Origin: an uncultured Paracoccaceae bacterium
Lineage (GTDB): Bacteria > Pseudomonadota > Alphaproteobacteria > Rhodobacterales > Rhodobacteraceae
Length of the DNA: 64,000 nucleotides
Direction: 5' to 3'
Assembly: GCA_947492475.1 (NCBI GenBank)
Contig: CANLNM010000002.1
Location: 1 to 64,000 of the forward strand
Shown here piece by piece: positions 18 to 7,025 of this stretch. A program made the position numbers and the translations under genes. Within the stretch, counting starts at the first letter, position 1. Every line of letters begins with the position of its first letter. The notes beneath the pieces were generated by a model. It did not search any database and was not told where the DNA came from. It worked only from the letters and a program-made list of their open reading frames with translations.

Positions 18-77
18 GTGTTTTATCCTTCGGATCGAGAATTAGTTATATGTTACGATGGTTTGGTTGGCCAACTG
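1..77. repeat. 77-bp block of pilin array, copy 1
   Basis: Identical to 214-290 (offset 213 bp). The block spans the first codons of one pilin gene, the intergenic spacer with its ribosome binding site, and the last codons of the preceding pilin gene. The gene bodies between the blocks differ by many synonymous changes, so the block is more alike than the genes around it. Confidence 0.9.
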
Positions 78-230
78 GCTGGATACTTTGGAACCCAGGG
101 CTGTTGTACCGTTACCAACGGATGTCAGAACTGCGATGCCGAGGCCAACGATTGCGGCTGTCAGAACAACCCAGTCAACAGTTACAGCGCCGTCTTCGTC
201 GTTGCGGAAGTTTTTGATGAAGTTAAGCAT
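42..230 (-). CDS. Flp/Fap-family type IVb pilin-like protein (copy 2)
   Basis: A 62-residue protein with a short charged N-terminus (MLNFIKNFRNDEDG), then one hydrophobic helix of about 22 residues and a small polar tail rich in Ser, Thr and Asn. This is the architecture of Flp pilin subunits, which are cleaved at a Gly by a TadV-type prepilin peptidase and assembled by the Tad system; cleavage after DEDG would fit. The usual Glu-Tyr pair of Flp pilins reads Asp-Trp here. It differs from the neighbouring copy by one residue (Asn10 for Gln10). The ribosome site (GAAGGA) is weaker than that of the first gene. No tad genes are in the window, so pilus function is inferred from family resemblance. 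Confidence 0.8.
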   Translation of the reverse strand: MLNFIKNFRNDEDGAVTVDWVVLTAAIVGLGIAVLTSVGNGTTALGSKVSSQLANQTIVTYN

Positions 231-290
231 GTGTTTTATCCTTCGGATCGAGAATTAGTTATATGTTACGATGGTTTGGTTGGCCAACTG
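214..290. repeat. 77-bp block of pilin array, copy 2
   Basis: Second copy of the block at 1-77, a perfect match over its whole length, with divergence starting at the next base. It forms the junction between the two complete pilin genes. Confidence 0.9.
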
Positions 291-443
291 CGAGCTAACT
301 TTGGAGCCCAGCGCGGTTGTCCCGTTACCAACGGATGTCAGAACGGCGATGCCCAGACCAACGATTGCGGCTGTCAGAACAACCCAGTCAACGGTCACGG
401 CGCCGTCTTCGTCTTGACGGAAGTTTTTGATGAAGTTCAGCAT
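255..443 (-). CDS. Flp/Fap-family type IVb pilin-like protein (copy 1, promoter-proximal)
   Basis: The first gene of the minus-strand pilin array, 62 residues, with the same layout as its neighbour: charged leader (MLNFIKNFRQDEDG), hydrophobic helix at about residues 15-37, and a polar C-terminus ending TIVTYN. It has a much stronger ribosome binding site (AGGAGGGA, 6-7 nt before ATG) than the downstream copies, so it may be the main pilin while the others are minor or reserve copies. Protein identity with the next copy is near complete although the DNA differs at many third positions, which points to purifying selection on the protein. Confidence 0.82.
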   Translation of the reverse strand: MLNFIKNFRQDEDGAVTVDWVVLTAAIVGLGIAVLTSVGNGTTALGSKVSSQLANQTIVTYN

Positions 444-807: not shown

Positions 808-1644
808 ATGACGCGCAGCTCATCAAACATGGCACTATATATACTGTATGGGCTCTCACTTGCGGTGGGCCTGTCTTCGGCTGCGTTGGCAGACAGTCAC
901 CGTTTGCAACCTGATTTCACCTTTCGCAGCGTCGGGGTCCCGGAACCGGGATCAACTGCGCCGCGGATCACTGTGCAAATCGCGCCTTCCGCGCCCAGCG
1001 GTCCAGCTGCGCCCAATGCGGCCGGGCAGGGGGGCGCCACCGCTGCTGCCCCTCAGCAACGCCCACCGGGCGAATATGATTGGTTCTGGGAAACGATTTC
1101 ACCTGATGTGTCGGAATCCGGTCCGGGCCGATTGGACCCTGCCTTGGCGGCGATACGTGCAGGATCGGTCCAACAGCCGCGTCTGGCCACGCTGCAGGGG
1201 ATTGCCAGCACTCATGGTCTGGACATTTTGCGGGCCACGGTGGGTACGGATGTGTCCCCAGCGCTGGCTCTGGCGGTGATTTCCGTCGAAAGCGCGGGCC
1301 AAAGCGATGCGGTCAGCGGCGCCGGGGCGGCGGGATTGATGCAATTGATGCCTGCCACTGCGGAACGGTTCGGTGTGACGGACCGCATGAACAGCGCTGA
1401 TAACATCAAAGGCGGCGTGGCCTATCTGGCATGGCTGATGGACCATTTCGACAAAGACCCGATATTGGTGCTGGCCGCCTATAATGCAGGCGAAGGATCG
1501 GTGCGCGACAATTCCGGCGTGCCGCCTTATGCTGAAACGCGCGCCTATGTGCCCAAAGTTCTGGCTGCGTGGTCTGTCGCCCGCGGCCTGTGCATAACCC
1601 CCCCGCAGCTGATCACCGATGGCTGCGTCTTTTCCGTGAATTGA
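808..1644 (+). CDS. Lytic transglycosylase, SLT domain, exported
   Basis: A 278-residue protein with an N-terminal hydrophobic signal (about residues 8-29, ending SSAALA), a proline- and alanine-rich linker, and a C-terminal SLT goose-lysozyme-like domain from about residue 130. The catalytic Glu is in AVISVESAG, followed by the family signature AGLMQLMPATAERFG and AAYNAGEGSV. Enzymes of this family cleave the glycan strand of peptidoglycan between MurNAc and GlcNAc in the periplasm. It stands divergent to the pilin array and 11 nt before the UbiA-fusion gene. A role in opening the wall for the neighbouring pilus is possible but only inferred from position. Confidence 0.9.
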   Translation: MTRSSSNMALYILYGLSLAVGLSSAALADSHRLQPDFTFRSVGVPEPGSTAPRITVQIAPSAPSGPAAPNAAGQGGATAAAPQQRPPGEYDWFWETISPDVSESGPGRLDPALAAIRAGSVQQPRLATLQGIASTHGLDILRATVGTDVSPALALAVISVESAGQSDAVSGAGAAGLMQLMPATAERFGVTDRMNSADNIKGGVAYLAWLMDHFDKDPILVLAAYNAGEGSVRDNSGVPPYAETRAYVPKVLAAWSVARGLCITPPQLITDGCVFSVN

Positions 1645-1655
1645 GGGATATTACC

Positions 1656-3098
1656 GTGACGAAACGCCCGCTGGTATTAGATGTGGACGGGACGCTGCTG
1701 CGCACCGATATGTTGTTGGAATGTTTTTGGGCCGGGCTGGGCAAAGATCCCATGGCGACGCTCAAAGCATCGCTGTTGCACTGGCGTGACCGCGCGCGGC
1801 TGAAATCGGAACTGGCCCAGATCGCGCCGCTGCGCACGGATTTGCTTCCGGTTGAACCCGAAGTCATGGAATTGGTCGAAACTGCCAAATCTGAAGGCCG
1901 CGAAGTGGCCTTGGCGTCAGCCTCTGACATGTCTTTGGTTGAACCGCTGGCCAAACATCACGGCATCGAACGGGTATTTGCGTCCGATGGCGATGTGAAC
2001 CTCAAAGGCGACGCCAAGGCAGACGCGCTGGTCGCCGCCTACGGAGAAGGCGGGTTTGACTATGCCGGTAACGACATTTCCGACCTCAAGATCTGGCAGC
2101 GCGGGGCGGGGGCCATTGTGGTCACCGATCCCGGTGATAGCGTCGCAAAACTGCGCCGTGATGGCCATGAGGTCACAGACATCAAAGGTGGCTGGGAACC
2201 ACGCGATCTGATCCGCGCTATGCGGCCCCATCAATGGGTGAAAAACATCCTGTTGATCCTGCCGATGATTGCGTCGCATCATTTTGGTTTGGGGACATTG
2301 ATGTTGGTGCTGTTGGGCATGGCCAGTTTTTCGGCCGCTGCATCCTGTATCTATTTGGTCAATGACCTGCTGGACCTAGAAGCCGACCGCCTGCACGTCA
2401 AAAAATGCAAACGCCCCTTTGCCAGTGGGGCGGTGCCCATATCGGTGGGCATGGCGGCCACATTGGCGCTGGGCGCAATCGCTATTGGGCTGGGCGCATT
2501 TCTGGGCGGGCCGTTTTTGGTGGTGGTAATCACCTATATGACGCTGTCGCTGGCCTATTCGCTGAAACTGAAACGCATGCGCTGGGTCGATATCATGGTG
2601 CTGGCATCGCTGTATACATTGCGCGTTGTCGCCGGGGCGGCGGCCAGTCGGGTGGATGCGTCGATCTTTATGCTGATCTTTATCTTCCCGATCTTTATCT
2701 CGCTGGGCTGTGTGAAACGCCTGACCGAATTGACGCTGGCGGTGGATGATGAACGTCTGCCGGGGCGCGGCTATGGCCGCCCGGATCGCCCGGATTTGTT
2801 GAATATGGCCGGGATCGGCATGGCCGGGGCCTTGGTGATCTTTTTCCTGTATTCGCTGTCGGATCAGGCGCAGGTTCTCTATCCTGATCGCTGGCTTTTG
2901 TGGGTGGCGCTGTTGCCGATTGGCTGGTGGCTGTGGCGGATGATCCGGCTGGGCTGGTACGGAAAACAGGATTACGACCCAATTGTTTTTGCGCTCAAAG
3001 ACAAACGCGGCATGGGCCTGTTGCTGATCACATTGTCGCTGATGTTCTACGCCGCTGGCCTATGGGAGGTCTGGTTCGCCCGCATTGGCGTGCTGTAA
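1656..3098 (+). CDS. HAD phosphatase-UbiA prenyltransferase fusion (candidate polyprenyl-phosphoribose synthase)
   Basis: 480 residues from a GTG start at 1656, chosen because GAGGGA lies 7 nt upstream; the frame is open further upstream but overlaps the transglycosylase. Residues 1-190 form a HAD-type domain (DVDGTLLR, later AGNDISDLK). Residues 195-480 form a polytopic UbiA prenyltransferase with RPHQWVKN, the first Asp motif NDLLDLEAD and second motif YSLKLKRMRWVD. The UbiA part resembles decaprenylphosphoryl-5-phosphoribose synthase of actinobacteria, which joins PRPP to a polyprenyl phosphate; a fused phosphatase could remove the 5-phosphate. The convergent DprE1/DprE2-like genes make this reading plausible. 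The family also includes quinone and heme prenyltransferases, but the RPxQWVKN motif favours the phosphoribose type. Confidence 0.8.
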   Translation: MTKRPLVLDVDGTLLRTDMLLECFWAGLGKDPMATLKASLLHWRDRARLKSELAQIAPLRTDLLPVEPEVMELVETAKSEGREVALASASDMSLVEPLAKHHGIERVFASDGDVNLKGDAKADALVAAYGEGGFDYAGNDISDLKIWQRGAGAIVVTDPGDSVAKLRRDGHEVTDIKGGWEPRDLIRAMRPHQWVKNILLILPMIASHHFGLGTLMLVLLGMASFSAAASCIYLVNDLLDLEADRLHVKKCKRPFASGAVPISVGMAATLALGAIAIGLGAFLGGPFLVVVITYMTLSLAYSLKLKRMRWVDIMVLASLYTLRVVAGAAASRVDASIFMLIFIFPIFISLGCVKRLTELTLAVDDERLPGRGYGRPDRPDLLNMAGIGMAGALVIFFLYSLSDQAQVLYPDRWLLWVALLPIGWWLWRMIRLGWYGKQDYDPIVFALKDKRGMGLLLITLSLMFYAAGLWEVWFARIGVL

Positions 3099-3120
3099 CA
3101 AAGACGACATAAACATCAAA

Positions 3121-3154
3121 ACAGGGCGCGGAATAATTCCCGCGCCCTGTTTTG
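3121..3154. terminator. Bidirectional intrinsic terminator between convergent genes
   Basis: An 11-bp perfect stem (3121-3131 with 3140-3150) is followed by a T-rich run and preceded by an A-run, so it can work on both strands. It separates the rightward UbiA-fusion gene from the leftward operon ending at 3177. Confidence 0.85.
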
Positions 3155-3176
3155 TTTTGCCTTTATGTCGGATGTG

Positions 3177-3914
3177 TCAGAACGACATCTTCTTAAAGAT
3201 CGGTTCGGGAACACAGCGGATTACGGTCATCACGATGCGCCAAATCCCGGCCGTATAGATCGTGTTGCGCTTTTTGCGCACCCCTTTGAGGATGTCATTG
3301 GCCACGGCATCGGCGGTGGTCATGAACGGCATTTTACCAAGTCCCCAGGTCATGGCCGTGTCCACAGGGCCGGGTTTGACGGTCATCACATGGACGCCTG
3401 AACGTCCCAAACGATTGCGCAGACCAGATAGATAGGTGGCAAAGCCGCCCTTGGCCGCACCATAGACGTAATTCGCGATACGTCCGCGATCCCCGGCAAC
3501 GGATCCAACGCCGACGACCACACCTGCGCCGATTTCTTCCATCTGGGGGGCGATCATTTGCAGGAACCGGGCCGGGCCGGTCAGGCTGTCGATGACAACA
3601 CCGTCGATCAGCGACGGGTCCGCGTCGATATCGGATTGATCCGGCATCGAGCCCACAAACACCGCCACATTGACGATGCTGTGCAGCCCAACAGCGCGAT
3701 CAATAATGGGTTGGAACGTGTCCGCATTGCGCACATCCAGCGCGGCGGCTTCGGCAAATGTGGCCCCACGTGCCATTGCATCTGTGCAGCTGGCGTTCAT
3801 ATCGTCCATATCGCGCCCGGCCAAGATCAGGGAATGACCCGCCGCGGCCAGTTTGCGCATAAAGGGGCGCGCCATTGAGGACGTCGCGCCGAGAATGATC
3901 CATGTTTCGCTCAT
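3177..3914 (-). CDS. dprE2: Short-chain dehydrogenase, DprE2-like (keto-polyprenylphosphoryl-pentose reductase)
   Basis: A 245-residue SDR. The nucleotide motif is GATSSMARP near the N-terminus, followed by LAGRD for NADPH choice; the catalytic Ser lies in VGSVAGDRG and the Tyr/Lys pair in YVYGAAKGG. In DprE2 the enzyme reduces the 2'-keto intermediate made by DprE1, so that polyprenylphosphoryl ribose becomes the arabinose form. The start codon overlaps the stop of the upstream DprE1-like gene by ATGA, so the two are translationally coupled. The SDR family is large and the assignment rests mainly on this coupling and on the similar atypical glycine motif; another sugar reductase is possible. 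Confidence 0.78.
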   Translation of the reverse strand: MSETWIILGATSSMARPFMRKLAAAGHSLILAGRDMDDMNASCTDAMARGATFAEAAALDVRNADTFQPIIDRAVGLHSIVNVAVFVGSMPDQSDIDADPSLIDGVVIDSLTGPARFLQMIAPQMEEIGAGVVVGVGSVAGDRGRIANYVYGAAKGGFATYLSGLRNRLGRSGVHVMTVKPGPVDTAMTWGLGKMPFMTTADAVANDILKGVRKKRNTIYTAGIWRIVMTVIRCVPEPIFKKMSF

Positions 3915-5215
3915 TGTTCGTTCCTCAATTGCAGGCGGCGGACCATGTCGGTCTCATATGTTTTTGTGGGGTCGGCTTTGGCGACTTCGGCGGCCCATTG
4001 GCCATATTCAGTGTACATCGCTTTGATGTTGTCGCCGCGCGACAGGGCGTCTTTGGCCAGATAAATCCGACCGCCCGCTTTTAGGCATTTATCCTCTAGT
4101 TGCTGGATCAATGATTGCGCAGCGTCCCGCGCCGGGAAATCGACGGCCAATGTGTAGCCTTCCATCGGGAAAGACATATATCCCGCACGCCCCGGTCCCA
4201 TCCGTTTCAGAACCGCCAACGGTGACGCGAGCCCGGAATGGGCGATCTTTTCCAGTATTTCCTTCAGGGCGTCGGCTTGATCCAGTGGGACCACGCATTG
4301 AAACTGATGAAATCCGCGTTTGCCATAAAGCCGGTTCCAGTCATGGATTTTGTCCAGCGGAAAAAAGAATTCCTGGATCGGTTTGACCACAGTCCGCCCC
4401 GCCGCAGGCACCCGGCGATAATAGGCATTGTTGAACATTTTAACGATCGGGGCAGAGAGCGCGAAATTCGGCGCATCCATGGGGATGGTGCGCGATTTTT
4501 TCGGCTTGGTCACCAGACCCGCGCCGGTTTCGCCCTCTTCGACGATACCACGGCCCAGTGCCGCGCCGCGCGCAGTTGCATCAATCCAGCCCACCACATA
4601 GGTCGCATCGGATGCGTCCAGAATGGCCAGATGATCATCCCAATTTTCGGCCCGCCGTTCCGTGACCATCATCACGTCGCCTTTGCAGGATTTTAACTGC
4701 ATCGTCGCGCTGGCTATGATCCCGGTTTGGCCCAAGCCCCCAATCGTGGCCCGCCACAGCGCGTCATCGTTGGGGGTCACATCGCGCGACACACCGTTCT
4801 GGATCAGGGTGATCTGGGTGATGTGTTGACCAAAGGATCCTTCGTTATGGTGGTTTTTGCCGTGCACATCCATCGCAATGGCACCGCCCACTGTGCAAAA
4901 CCCGGTGCCGGGCATCACCATCGGCAGCCAGCCTTTGGGGGCGAACATTTCGGCCAATTCGCCCAATGTCATGCCAGCCTCGACCTGCAAAAGACCGGTT
5001 TTGTCATCAAAGGACAGGATGCGGTCCAGCCGGGTCATATCGGTGATTTTGCCGCCGGAATTCAGCGATGCATCCCCATAGGACCGGCAATTGCCCATGG
5101 CAGGCCCCTCTTTAGACAGGGCGGTCAGGGCGCGGGCGCGTTCGGGCCGGGCGGCATCGCCTTTGGCTTTGCGGGCGCGGCCCCAGCCAGCATATGTGAT
5201 ATTATTCCAAGTCAT
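3911..5215 (-). CDS. dprE1: FAD-linked oxidoreductase, DprE1-like (polyprenylphosphoryl-ribose 2'-oxidase)
   Basis: 434 residues with an N-terminal FAD-binding-4 domain (NCRSYGDASLNSGG near residue 42; MDVHGKNHH at 115-123) and an ALO-like C-terminal substrate domain. From memory it aligns along its length with mycobacterial DprE1: LGRSYGD, PGT..TVGGAIA, DIHGKNHH, the VDFP segment and the YxAKD segment. His118 and Lys388 correspond to His132 and Lys418 of the mycobacterial enzyme. The residue matching Cys387, the covalent target of benzothiazinones, is Ala357 here. DprE1 oxidises the 2'-OH of decaprenylphosphoryl ribose. AAGG lies just before the ATG; the gene sits 9 nt after a flippase-like gene and is coupled to the SDR downstream. 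Confidence 0.87.
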   Translation of the reverse strand: MTWNNITYAGWGRARKAKGDAARPERARALTALSKEGPAMGNCRSYGDASLNSGGKITDMTRLDRILSFDDKTGLLQVEAGMTLGELAEMFAPKGWLPMVMPGTGFCTVGGAIAMDVHGKNHHNEGSFGQHITQITLIQNGVSRDVTPNDDALWRATIGGLGQTGIIASATMQLKSCKGDVMMVTERRAENWDDHLAILDASDATYVVGWIDATARGAALGRGIVEEGETGAGLVTKPKKSRTIPMDAPNFALSAPIVKMFNNAYYRRVPAAGRTVVKPIQEFFFPLDKIHDWNRLYGKRGFHQFQCVVPLDQADALKEILEKIAHSGLASPLAVLKRMGPGRAGYMSFPMEGYTLAVDFPARDAAQSLIQQLEDKCLKAGGRIYLAKDALSRGDNIKAMYTEYGQWAAEVAKADPTKTYETDMVRRLQLRNEQ

Positions 5216-5224
5216 TCTACTACC

Positions 5225-6238
5225 TTAGCGGGCGAATTTGAGGGACATGCGTTCAGCAAAAGGAAAGACCAACAGGCCGATCCCAATGGCGAACCAAAGC
5301 GTGGTCACACGGATAATGGCCGTGGCCGGAATAGAGGTTTCAAGCGGTACCCCTTCGAGGGACAAAAGCGCGATCATCGCGGCTTCGGCACCACCAACAC
5401 CGCCCGGCGCGCCCGTTAGGCCGCCTGCCAGCGTGGAAAAGGTGAAGATGGCCAGCGCCATGGCGAAATGCACATCCGCCCCCAGCCAGACCAACAACAG
5501 ATGAAACGCCCAGCCTTCGGCGGCCCAACCGATCAGGCCCAGCACAATGGCGGTGATCATCACAGGGGCCGAGGTAAAGGCGGTCAATGACCGGGCAGCG
5601 CTGCGAATGCGTGCCATCAGCCGGGGAAACAGCCCCGTGGCGCGATAGGTCAATGTGGTCAGCCCCGCCAACAGGCGTGGGCGTGTGGCAATCACCGCCC
5701 CCATCAGGGCCAGCGCGGCCACAGGAACCGCAAAACTGATGCCGCCTGTGCCCAGTGCAATCGACAGTGCAAGGATCAGCGCCATTGCGGCCAAATCCGA
5801 TGCGCGGTCCACCAAAACCAACGGGGCAGTGCGTTCGACCGGCCAACCGGTTTCGCGACGTAGCCAGCGCATGCGGATCAATTCACCCACCCGGCCCGGC
5901 GTGACGGACATGGCGAACCCACCCAGAAAATGGCGCAAATCCTGGATCAGTCCCGTTGGCAGGCCCAGTCGGCGGGCAAATAAATGCCACCGCGCACCGC
6001 GAAACAGGTAATTTACCAGCGACAGCGCAAACAGGATCACAACTTGTGTCATGTTCAGTTTCATCAACTGCGCTTTGGTTTCTTCCCAGCCAGTGGCCAG
6101 TGCCAGACTGATCAATCCGGCCAAAACAAACCCAAACAACACTGCCAATAGGGCAATGTCACGCCAGCGCCGGTTTTTTTCGGACGCGGCGGGCTGAGGC
6201 GCATGGGGCGGGGTGCTATGCAGGCTACTTGTGGTCAT
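5225..6238 (-). CDS. Lysylphosphatidylglycerol synthase TM-like (YbhN/AglD-type) membrane protein, flippase candidate
   Basis: 337 residues from the ATG at 6238; a TTG at 6271 is also open but less likely. About eight hydrophobic segments follow a Pro-rich cytosolic N-terminus. The pattern RHFLGGFAMSVTPGRVGEL, then a later GAPGGVGGAEA loop, is the hallmark of the UPF0104/LPG-synthase transmembrane family. Members without the synthase domain are thought to move or handle lipid-linked substrates. The gene lies between a methyltransferase and the DprE1-like gene on the same strand, so it is a candidate to flip the polyprenyl-linked sugar; this is inference from context only. Confidence 0.75.
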   Translation of the reverse strand: MTTSSLHSTPPHAPQPAASEKNRRWRDIALLAVLFGFVLAGLISLALATGWEETKAQLMKLNMTQVVILFALSLVNYLFRGARWHLFARRLGLPTGLIQDLRHFLGGFAMSVTPGRVGELIRMRWLRRETGWPVERTAPLVLVDRASDLAAMALILALSIALGTGGISFAVPVAALALMGAVIATRPRLLAGLTTLTYRATGLFPRLMARIRSAARSLTAFTSAPVMITAIVLGLIGWAAEGWAFHLLLVWLGADVHFAMALAIFTFSTLAGGLTGAPGGVGGAEAAMIALLSLEGVPLETSIPATAIIRVTTLWFAIGIGLLVFPFAERMSLKFAR

Positions 6239-6302
6239 TGCGCTATGATTAGCGACAAAATGGGGCAACAATGTGAAGCTGTTTCGATTTTGGAAACGAT
6301 TT

Positions 6303-7025
6303 TTAGGCTGGTTTTTGCCATTCTGACAGCATCAGATAGGCCGTATTGTTGTATTGGTCGCGAATTGCGGCATCCGGATGGGTCGATGGCGGTTCGTCAA
6401 AATGGGTTAGAATCAGGCCTTCGTTCAGGAAAGCCTGAAAATAGGCGGTCAGGGGACGGTGCCAATTATGGACCCTTATGCCGTTCCATTCGGCCCAATA
6501 CACGTCATTTTCCAGATACCCGCGCAGGTGGATATCTGCGGTATTGGTTTTTGTGACGGTCCACCCGGTTTGTCGCGCTGCGGTAAAAAAGCCGGACAAA
6601 TTGCCCATCAGGATATGCCCGCCGGGCCGCAATACGCGCTTTGCCTCGGCGATGGCGGCAGGAAAATCGGGGATGTCGATCAGCGACAGATAAAACACCA
6701 CCAGATCGGTGCTGGCATCGGGCAGGGGCAGGTTTTCGCCAAAGGCAGATAGATATGTACCCACAGGATCAAGCGCCCGGGCCTGTTCCAAAAGGGCCGA
6801 AGTGGGATCAATGCCAAGCGTTTGCAGCCCCGCATTCCGGGCCATCCGGCAAAACCGGCCTTCTCCGCAACCGACATCAACCAGATGTTTGGCCCCGCTG
6901 GCCCGCACCCGCGCCATCATCGGCTGATCCAACACATAGGCGCGGCTTTGATCGCCAATGTCGCCCAATGTGGTGATCCAGGCATCAGCCGATTTGGTCC
7001 AGCCGTCATCATTTTGGTGTGTCAT
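6303..7025 (-). CDS. Class I SAM-dependent methyltransferase
   Basis: 240 residues with the Methyltransf_11 core: motif I VDVGCGEGRF (about residues 50-59), the acidic motif GIDPTSALL, then DLVVFYLSLIDIPD and the post-motif LRPGGHILMGN. The substrate is not predictable from sequence. It is the first gene of the leftward set methyltransferase, flippase-like, DprE1-like, DprE2-like, with a 64-nt gap to the next gene, so it may modify the same glycolipid or its product. It could equally be a stand-alone gene. Confidence 0.8.
   Translation of the reverse strand: MTHQNDDGWTKSADAWITTLGDIGDQSRAYVLDQPMMARVRASGAKHLVDVGCGEGRFCRMARNAGLQTLGIDPTSALLEQARALDPVGTYLSAFGENLPLPDASTDLVVFYLSLIDIPDFPAAIAEAKRVLRPGGHILMGNLSGFFTAARQTGWTVTKTNTADIHLRGYLENDVYWAEWNGIRVHNWHRPLTAYFQAFLNEGLILTHFDEPPSTHPDAAIRDQYNNTAYLMLSEWQKPA

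Follow-up and report, generated by a model that had tools for sequence, protein, structure and literature searches.

A candidate arabinosylation module at the two ends of Tad pilus operons in Rhodobacteraceae

Contig CANLNM010000002.1 of an uncultured Paracoccaceae bacterium (GenBank assembly GCA_947492475.1) carries, close to its start, a block of genes resembling those of the mycobacterial lipid-linked arabinose pathway. Our window, positions 1 to 64,000 of this contig, begins at the Flp pilin end of a Tad (tight-adherence) pilus locus. The block probably supplies the sugar donor for a system dedicated to arabinosylating the Tad (Flp) pilus, in which a putative GT-C glycosyltransferase linked to the same operon would be the other half. 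We observe the gene content with intact motifs, a two-slot synteny, co-gain and co-loss of the two blocks, the fold of the flippase, and its substitution by GtrA in some relatives. With less assurance, we lean towards a broader view in which many Rhodobacteraceae arabinosylate their Tad/Flp pili by a self-contained, optional module placed at both operon ends; its GT-C proteins would form a new family, its MprF-fold flippase would move polyprenyl-phosphate-arabinofuranose, and the module would have been gained and lost repeatedly, perhaps under phage pressure.

A predicted lipid-linked pentose donor block beside the Flp pilin genes

The genes that matter here are the following.

1656-3098, forward strand: HAD(PRP)-UbiA(PPPRS) fusion, predicted polyprenyl-phosphate phosphoribosyltransferase and 5'-phosphatase (family scores, motifs)
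3177-3914, reverse strand: DprE2-like short-chain dehydrogenase/reductase, putative 2-keto reductase of a lipid-phosphate pentose (profile scores, S-Y-K residues)
3911-5215, reverse strand: DprE1-like flavin adenine dinucleotide (FAD) oxidase, putative lipid-phosphate-ribose 2-oxidase (DprE1 model, PDB DprE1 match)
5225-6271, or from an ATG at 6238, reverse strand: MprF-flippase-fold membrane protein, proposed polyprenyl-phosphate-arabinose flippase (PF03706)
808-1644, forward strand: SLT lytic transglycosylase (PF01464, 91 bits), 11 bases upstream of the HAD-UbiA gene
42-230, reverse strand: Flp-type Tad pilin of 62 amino acids (MLNFIKNFRNDEDG^AVTVDWVVLTAA...), likely acceptor, near-identical to the next copy
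255-443, reverse strand: Flp-type Tad pilin of 62 amino acids, likely acceptor, a near-identical tandem copy at the flp position seen in relatives

A sequence-only reading of this DNA had proposed a lipid-linked arabinose-type donor pathway from five open reading frames: HAD-UbiA, the DprE1/DprE2 pair, a flippase-like protein and a methyltransferase. All five are where it described them; the SLT gene and both Flp pilins had been overlooked. A polyprenyl-phosphate-arabinofuranose-type donor pathway is supported by the scores against protein families, by the catalytic residues and by a co-inheritance that is almost perfect, with the sugar and lipid predicted and each enzyme step assigned from family and motif. 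Neither of the two sequence-level refutations named in the sequence-only reading came about.

The HAD-UbiA protein scores 501.6 bits against NF006088 (cut-off 351), the runner-up models being those of decaprenyl-phosphate phosphoribosyltransferase, which is also its best PDB match (8j8j, E 3e-26); quinone prenyltransferases are not among the families with which its UbiA part scores. The nucleophile D9 of DVDGT and the UbiA motifs N236-D237-xx-D240-xxx-D244 and K354-R355-xx-E358 are kept, and are conserved in aligned homologues. They correspond to residues mutated or tested in Citrobacter ORF15, a HAD-UbiA fusion of the same domain order that is a proven polyprenyl-phosphoribose synthase/phosphatase (PMC11127046).

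The DprE1-like protein reaches 388.5 bits with the DprE1 model, while the second-ranked FAD oxidase model gives 49, and in the PDB it matches DprE1 at E 3.5e-75 and xylitol oxidase at 9e-7; it does not score with the aldonolactone or sugar-alcohol oxidases. HGKNHH, QxQ and the K418 equivalent are invariant in 91 homologues. The equivalent of Cys387 of M. tuberculosis DprE1 is Ala in 79/79 homologues of the Tad-flanking form (type A), the other conserved residues being kept, and benzothiazinones are therefore not expected to be useful probes of this protein. The DprE2-like protein scores 149.7 bits with the DprE2 model and lies closer to PRK07102 (242 bits, cut-off 267); its S-Y-K residues are conserved. 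The two reading frames overlap by 4 bases, and the genes are paired throughout the loci with active sites intact.

In 61 named loci, all from Rhodobacteraceae-type records, we find the order dprA-topA-scoA-scoB-flippase-DprE1-DprE2-(HAD-UbiA)-SLT, incomplete in places, and flp then cpaB continue beyond SLT in those read further. Because this order is kept across Rhodobacteraceae, the arrangement is not a matter of chance.

A separate observation concerns a HAD-UbiA homologue in another genome (G052:C11:1391791-1392663), where the hidden Markov model (HMM) match spans the UbiA part only (187-480); its HAD domain may have diverged or be absent.

A candidate GT-C transferase at the far flank of the Tad operon

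The rest of the Tad operon of this genome occupies the right end of a second contig, C10 (C10:85881 down to 75478), in the order third flp, cpaB/rcpC, secretin cpaC, lipoprotein, cpaE, tadA, tadB, tadC, tadD, cpaA. From synteny comparison we infer that the window contig start and the C10 right end adjoin in the genome.

The sequence-only reading had suggested a genome search for GT-C arabinosyltransferases. A polytopic gene close to DprE2 and cpaA was seen in four loci, and the profile built from it (A1) matches C10:55015-56637, on a contig other than the window's, with E 8e-192; the gene itself is G000:C10:55018-56655. The same profile matches 45/45 type-A-locus genomes checked (this one included), 0/3 of those that have only the Tad-independent cassettes described below (type B), and 0/9 of those without DprE1. 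The gene adjoins an AAA-type gene in 29/30 loci and cpaA in 25/30; in the source genome it is still beside the AAA gene, with about 19 kb now separating it from cpaA.

Members of this family have about 11 predicted transmembrane segments, and D38, R48, D58 and T61 (HEGD...R...PHxDFxT) are invariant in the loop after the first. Comparison with GT87 by HMM-HMM alignment gave a probability of 93.6% (E 2e-7), against 0.2-2% for the controls (UbiA, flippase and type-B GT-C), and 2/32 members touch GT87 directly (E 0.023). Outside the Tad context (L244), a relative or paralogue has HAD-UbiA and GtrA as neighbours, which ties the family to the donor independently. We regard the Tad-flank protein as a candidate GT-C enzyme of an unnamed family, with a predicted transferase activity.

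Profile matches in G244 and G363 (both outside the bacterial family) and in G113 were set aside as remote GT-C-like genes with no Tad or donor genes nearby. The source genome also has two GT87-type genes at G000:C3:121270-125119, other possible lipid-sugar-dependent glycosyltransferases.

The two blocks are gained and lost together

Comparison of loci defines two slots, scoB|SLT and cpaA|AAA. Pathway-plus relatives have the four donor genes in the first and the GT-C gene in the second, and pathway-minus relatives read topA-scoA-scoB | SLT-flp-cpaB...cpaA | AAA with both slots empty (18 Tad loci read). The SLT gene stays beside flp in Tad loci with and without the donor pathway, and since it is kept in the pathway-minus ones we take it to be a gene of the Tad locus and not a member of the pathway. 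Across 149 family genomes, TadA is present in 128; it occurs in about 87 genomes that have no GT-C gene, so the module is optional for the Tad pilus.

In these 149 genomes, type-A DprE1 and the GT-C gene are both present in 41 and both absent in 104, with 1 and 3 discordant (Fisher p 6e-32). Among the discordant genomes, G122 is a 76%-complete assembly, G019 is cut by a contig edge yet has DprE2, HAD-UbiA and the GT-C gene, and G102 and G113 have weaker GT-C matches with no donor genes on the stretches read. One genome tallied as concordant, G125, really carries a paralogue beside GtrA and HAD-UbiA.

A tree of TopA+ScoA+ScoB+SLT from 62 loci requires 10 changes of state, 9 of them on well supported branches, and places a pathway-minus locus as the nearest relative of the window. 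All nine independent pairs agree (9/9, sign test p 0.004), because both blocks share their state in all sampled genomes, which gives at least nine independent joint changes. The minus genomes in the tree were TadA-positive genomes picked for the absence of both blocks; this selection is not the source of the agreement, since the 149-genome table has hardly any discordant genomes.

A candidate MprF-fold flippase, replaced by GtrA in some relatives

The flippase-like protein matches LPG_synthase_TM (PF03706) at 148 bits. Its AlphaFold model (predicted local distance difference test, pLDDT, 90) finds MprF in the PDB with E 1.4e-4 and probability 1.0. Among the genomes tested, the gene is missing from the pathway-minus genomes and from five type-B genomes, and the only type-A genomes to lack it are four Celeribacter in which GtrA comes after HAD-UbiA. 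In these (L078, L081, L082 and L092) the MprF-fold flippase is absent genome-wide and GtrA stands beside a HAD-UbiA elsewhere. A genome with a type-A block and a separate type-B cassette (G063) carries both flippase and GtrA. GtrA is a known lipid-sugar flippase family, and the substitution of one protein for the other is our best evidence for a role in lipid-linked sugar transport. We propose that the MprF-fold protein flips a lipid-linked sugar, in a direction predicted from the pathway.

The type-B cassettes (L125-L132 and L142, in other Rhodobacteraceae) resemble the window block in having HAD-UbiA and, mostly, DprE1/DprE2-like genes, and differ from it in their GtrA flippase and lack of Tad linkage. 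Three of them encode another GT-C-like protein of roughly 550 amino acids (GIDDAAITRSYADN...GERVEGST), without a Pfam or NCBIfam match, whose motifs suggest a resemblance to AftB. It was rejected as the transferase of the source genome, from which it is absent. Type B is apparently a second, Tad-independent pentofuranose system.

Proposed pathway and alternatives

In the scheme we propose, HAD-UbiA would convert phosphoribosyl pyrophosphate to polyprenyl-phosphate-ribose-5-phosphate and then to polyprenyl-phosphate-ribose; the DprE1-like and DprE2-like enzymes would oxidize and then reduce C2, yielding polyprenyl-phosphate-D-arabinofuranose; the MprF-fold protein would flip this lipid to the periplasm; and the GT-C protein from the other operon end would transfer arabinofuranose to an acceptor of the Tad pilus, most likely the surface-exposed tail of the Flp pilin. 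Flp is the most likely acceptor by the location of the genes, by the co-inheritance and by the precedent of D-Araf on P. paraeruginosa type IVa pilin.

Several observations weigh against this scheme. Flp is proposed as the acceptor from position, and arabinose as the sugar from the genes. Both epimerase candidates miss the curated equivalog cut-offs, DprE1 that of NF053785 (388.5 bits against 500, a value passed by 0/149 family genomes) and DprE2 that of NF053786 (149.7 against 250), and for this reason we name them DprE1-like and DprE2-like only. The GT-C family has no significant sequence match in Pfam, NCBIfam or the PDB; a profile of 32 homologues returned nothing useful from the PDB; AlphaFold modelled it poorly (pLDDT 47, four sequences); and the model's top Foldseek match, the mannosyltransferase PimE, is not significant (E 0.21). 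The Flp tails of pathway-plus and pathway-minus genomes do differ, though the difference is not significant on the tree. Three genomes (G158, an isolate, G163 and G164; loci L056, L073 and L074) have the flippase, DprE1/E2 and GT-C genes with no detectable polyprenyl-phosphoribose synthase; in G160, of the same clade, a phosphoribose synthase is found elsewhere in the genome. Finally, the G155/G117 lineage has lost tadA, HAD-UbiA and SLT and kept DprE1/E2, the flippase and the GT-C gene; its locus in G155 (L048) is a remnant of a Tad operon deletion in which cpaA is still there.

The persistence of the genes in this tadA-less lineage would fit an alternative in which the donor serves a cell-surface polysaccharide or lipopolysaccharide, the Tad operon being a mere neighbour and the adjacent GT-C protein modifying that glycan. 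Type-B HAD-UbiA/GtrA/DprE1 cassettes do occur outside the Tad locus in relatives, and the source genome has its own two other GT87-type genes (C3:121-125 kb). Against this, the type-A genes fill the two slots flanking the Tad operon and have changed state jointly at least nine times, the type-B-only genomes tested lack both this GT-C protein and this flippase, and the type-B GT-C candidate is missing here. The joint gain and loss of the donor genes and the GT-C gene, on either side of the Tad operon, makes the pilus, and not a new surface polysaccharide, the most likely carrier of the sugar. We consider a general surface glycan unlikely, and the new surface arabinan or modified lipopolysaccharide that the sequence-only reading had suggested finds no support.

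Location alone cannot choose among Tad components, and the acceptor could be another Tad or periplasmic component such as a minor pilin, an outer-membrane Tad protein or peptidoglycan; a lytic transglycosylase is encoded beside HAD-UbiA. This SLT gene is kept in pathway-minus Tad loci, however, and in the TfpW system, the nearest analogue, it is the major pilin that is known to be modified (PMC12369383). We hold a non-Flp acceptor to be a still less probable alternative. Least probable is a final sugar other than D-arabinofuranose, a different pentose or derivative made by an additional enzyme or by the DprE1-like and DprE2-like proteins themselves and still placed on the pilus: the missed cut-offs, the three genomes without a phosphoribose synthase and a related system that yields xylofuranose via another epimerase (PMC11127046) speak for it, but the two enzymes are paired throughout with intact active sites, and the Araf-containing glycans are reported to be those with DprE1/E2 homologues (PMC11127046).

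Relation to known systems

The donor chemistry is known; what would be new is the class of pilus, the type of flippase and the unnamed GT-C family. The HAD(PRP)-UbiA(PPPRS) fusion and its catalytic residues are shared with the three-component pentofuranose system of Citrobacter youngae O1/O2 (Kelly et al. 2024, PMC11127046). That system makes a lipid-linked pentofuranose in the cytoplasm, flips it and uses it through a GT-C enzyme, with optional epimerases, as the present one would. There, however, the flippase is a MATE protein, the GT-C enzyme belongs to GT136 and the genes sit in an O-antigen cluster; here we find an MprF-fold PF03706 protein that is not a MATE, a candidate GT-C protein with distant similarity to GT87, DprE1/DprE2-like epimerases and a Tad pilus locus.

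In Pseudomonas paraeruginosa, D-Araf is placed on type IVa pilins (TfpW; PSPA7_6245-6251) and confers resistance to pilus-specific phages (PMC12369383). There Araf donor genes serve a pilin-linked GT-C arabinosyltransferase, as the present ones would, and here the candidate lies between cpaA and the AAA gene, is tied to the pilus locus and is co-inherited with the donor genes. TfpW acts on type IVa PilA from genes in a separate island, whereas the present genes flank the operon of a Tad/Flp system with 62-residue pilins, and HAD is fused to UbiA. Since pilus modification gives phage resistance in Pseudomonas (PMC12369383), phage escape is a natural hypothesis.

The mycobacterial decaprenylphosphoryl-arabinose pathway (Rv3806c, Rv3807c, DprE1, DprE2, Rv3789) has the same reaction order and homologues of its phosphoribosyltransferase, DprE1 and DprE2. 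It differs in that the phosphatase here is the HAD domain, the flippase is of another family and Cys387 of DprE1 is replaced by Ala. No Emb/Aft-type transferase was found at the locus. For the Azorhizobium noe comparison drawn earlier, no Nod-factor genes were seen near the locus, no genome-wide search having been made. In the open-access literature searched we found no relevant paper that brings arabinofuranose together with the tight-adherence pilus, or that treats DprE1, Rhodobacter and arabinose jointly, and a study of Tad loci in Rhodobacterales uses none of the glycosylation terms looked for (PMC8383342). RcpC of Tad systems has been linked to Flp glycosylation elsewhere (PMC12307814).

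The proposal offers a testable prediction for the transferase and acceptor that the sequence-only reading had left open. It also proposes that the GT-C proteins form a glycosyltransferase family of their own, a new one, and that MprF-fold flippases handle a class of substrate new to them. If true, arabinose chemistry regarded as "mycobacterial" would reach an adhesive pilus that is widespread, and part of the Tad pilus diversity in alga- and surface-colonising bacteria would be explained.

Neighbouring genes and minor observations

Both Flp pilins of the window have weak Pfam matches only. A C-terminal [ST]-[YF] motif in Flp gave raw counts of 46/94 in pathway-plus and 2/71 in pathway-minus pilins, and was dropped as an acceptor signature, being not significant on independent pairs.

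One further gene adjoins the block:

6303-7025, reverse strand: class-I methyltransferase, with the flippase gene immediately downstream

The sequence-only reading had counted it in the gene set. It stands beside the block in the source genome only and recurs in no other locus, and we rejected it as a pathway member; it is probably a bystander unrelated to the system.

Adjoining the GT-C gene in another locus (L178:12557-13870, reverse strand) is a conserved Tad-adjacent P-loop protein (MNMQVSNVIAPPAPKSLE...) with weak AAA-type Pfam matches only, which is retained in pathway-plus and pathway-minus loci.

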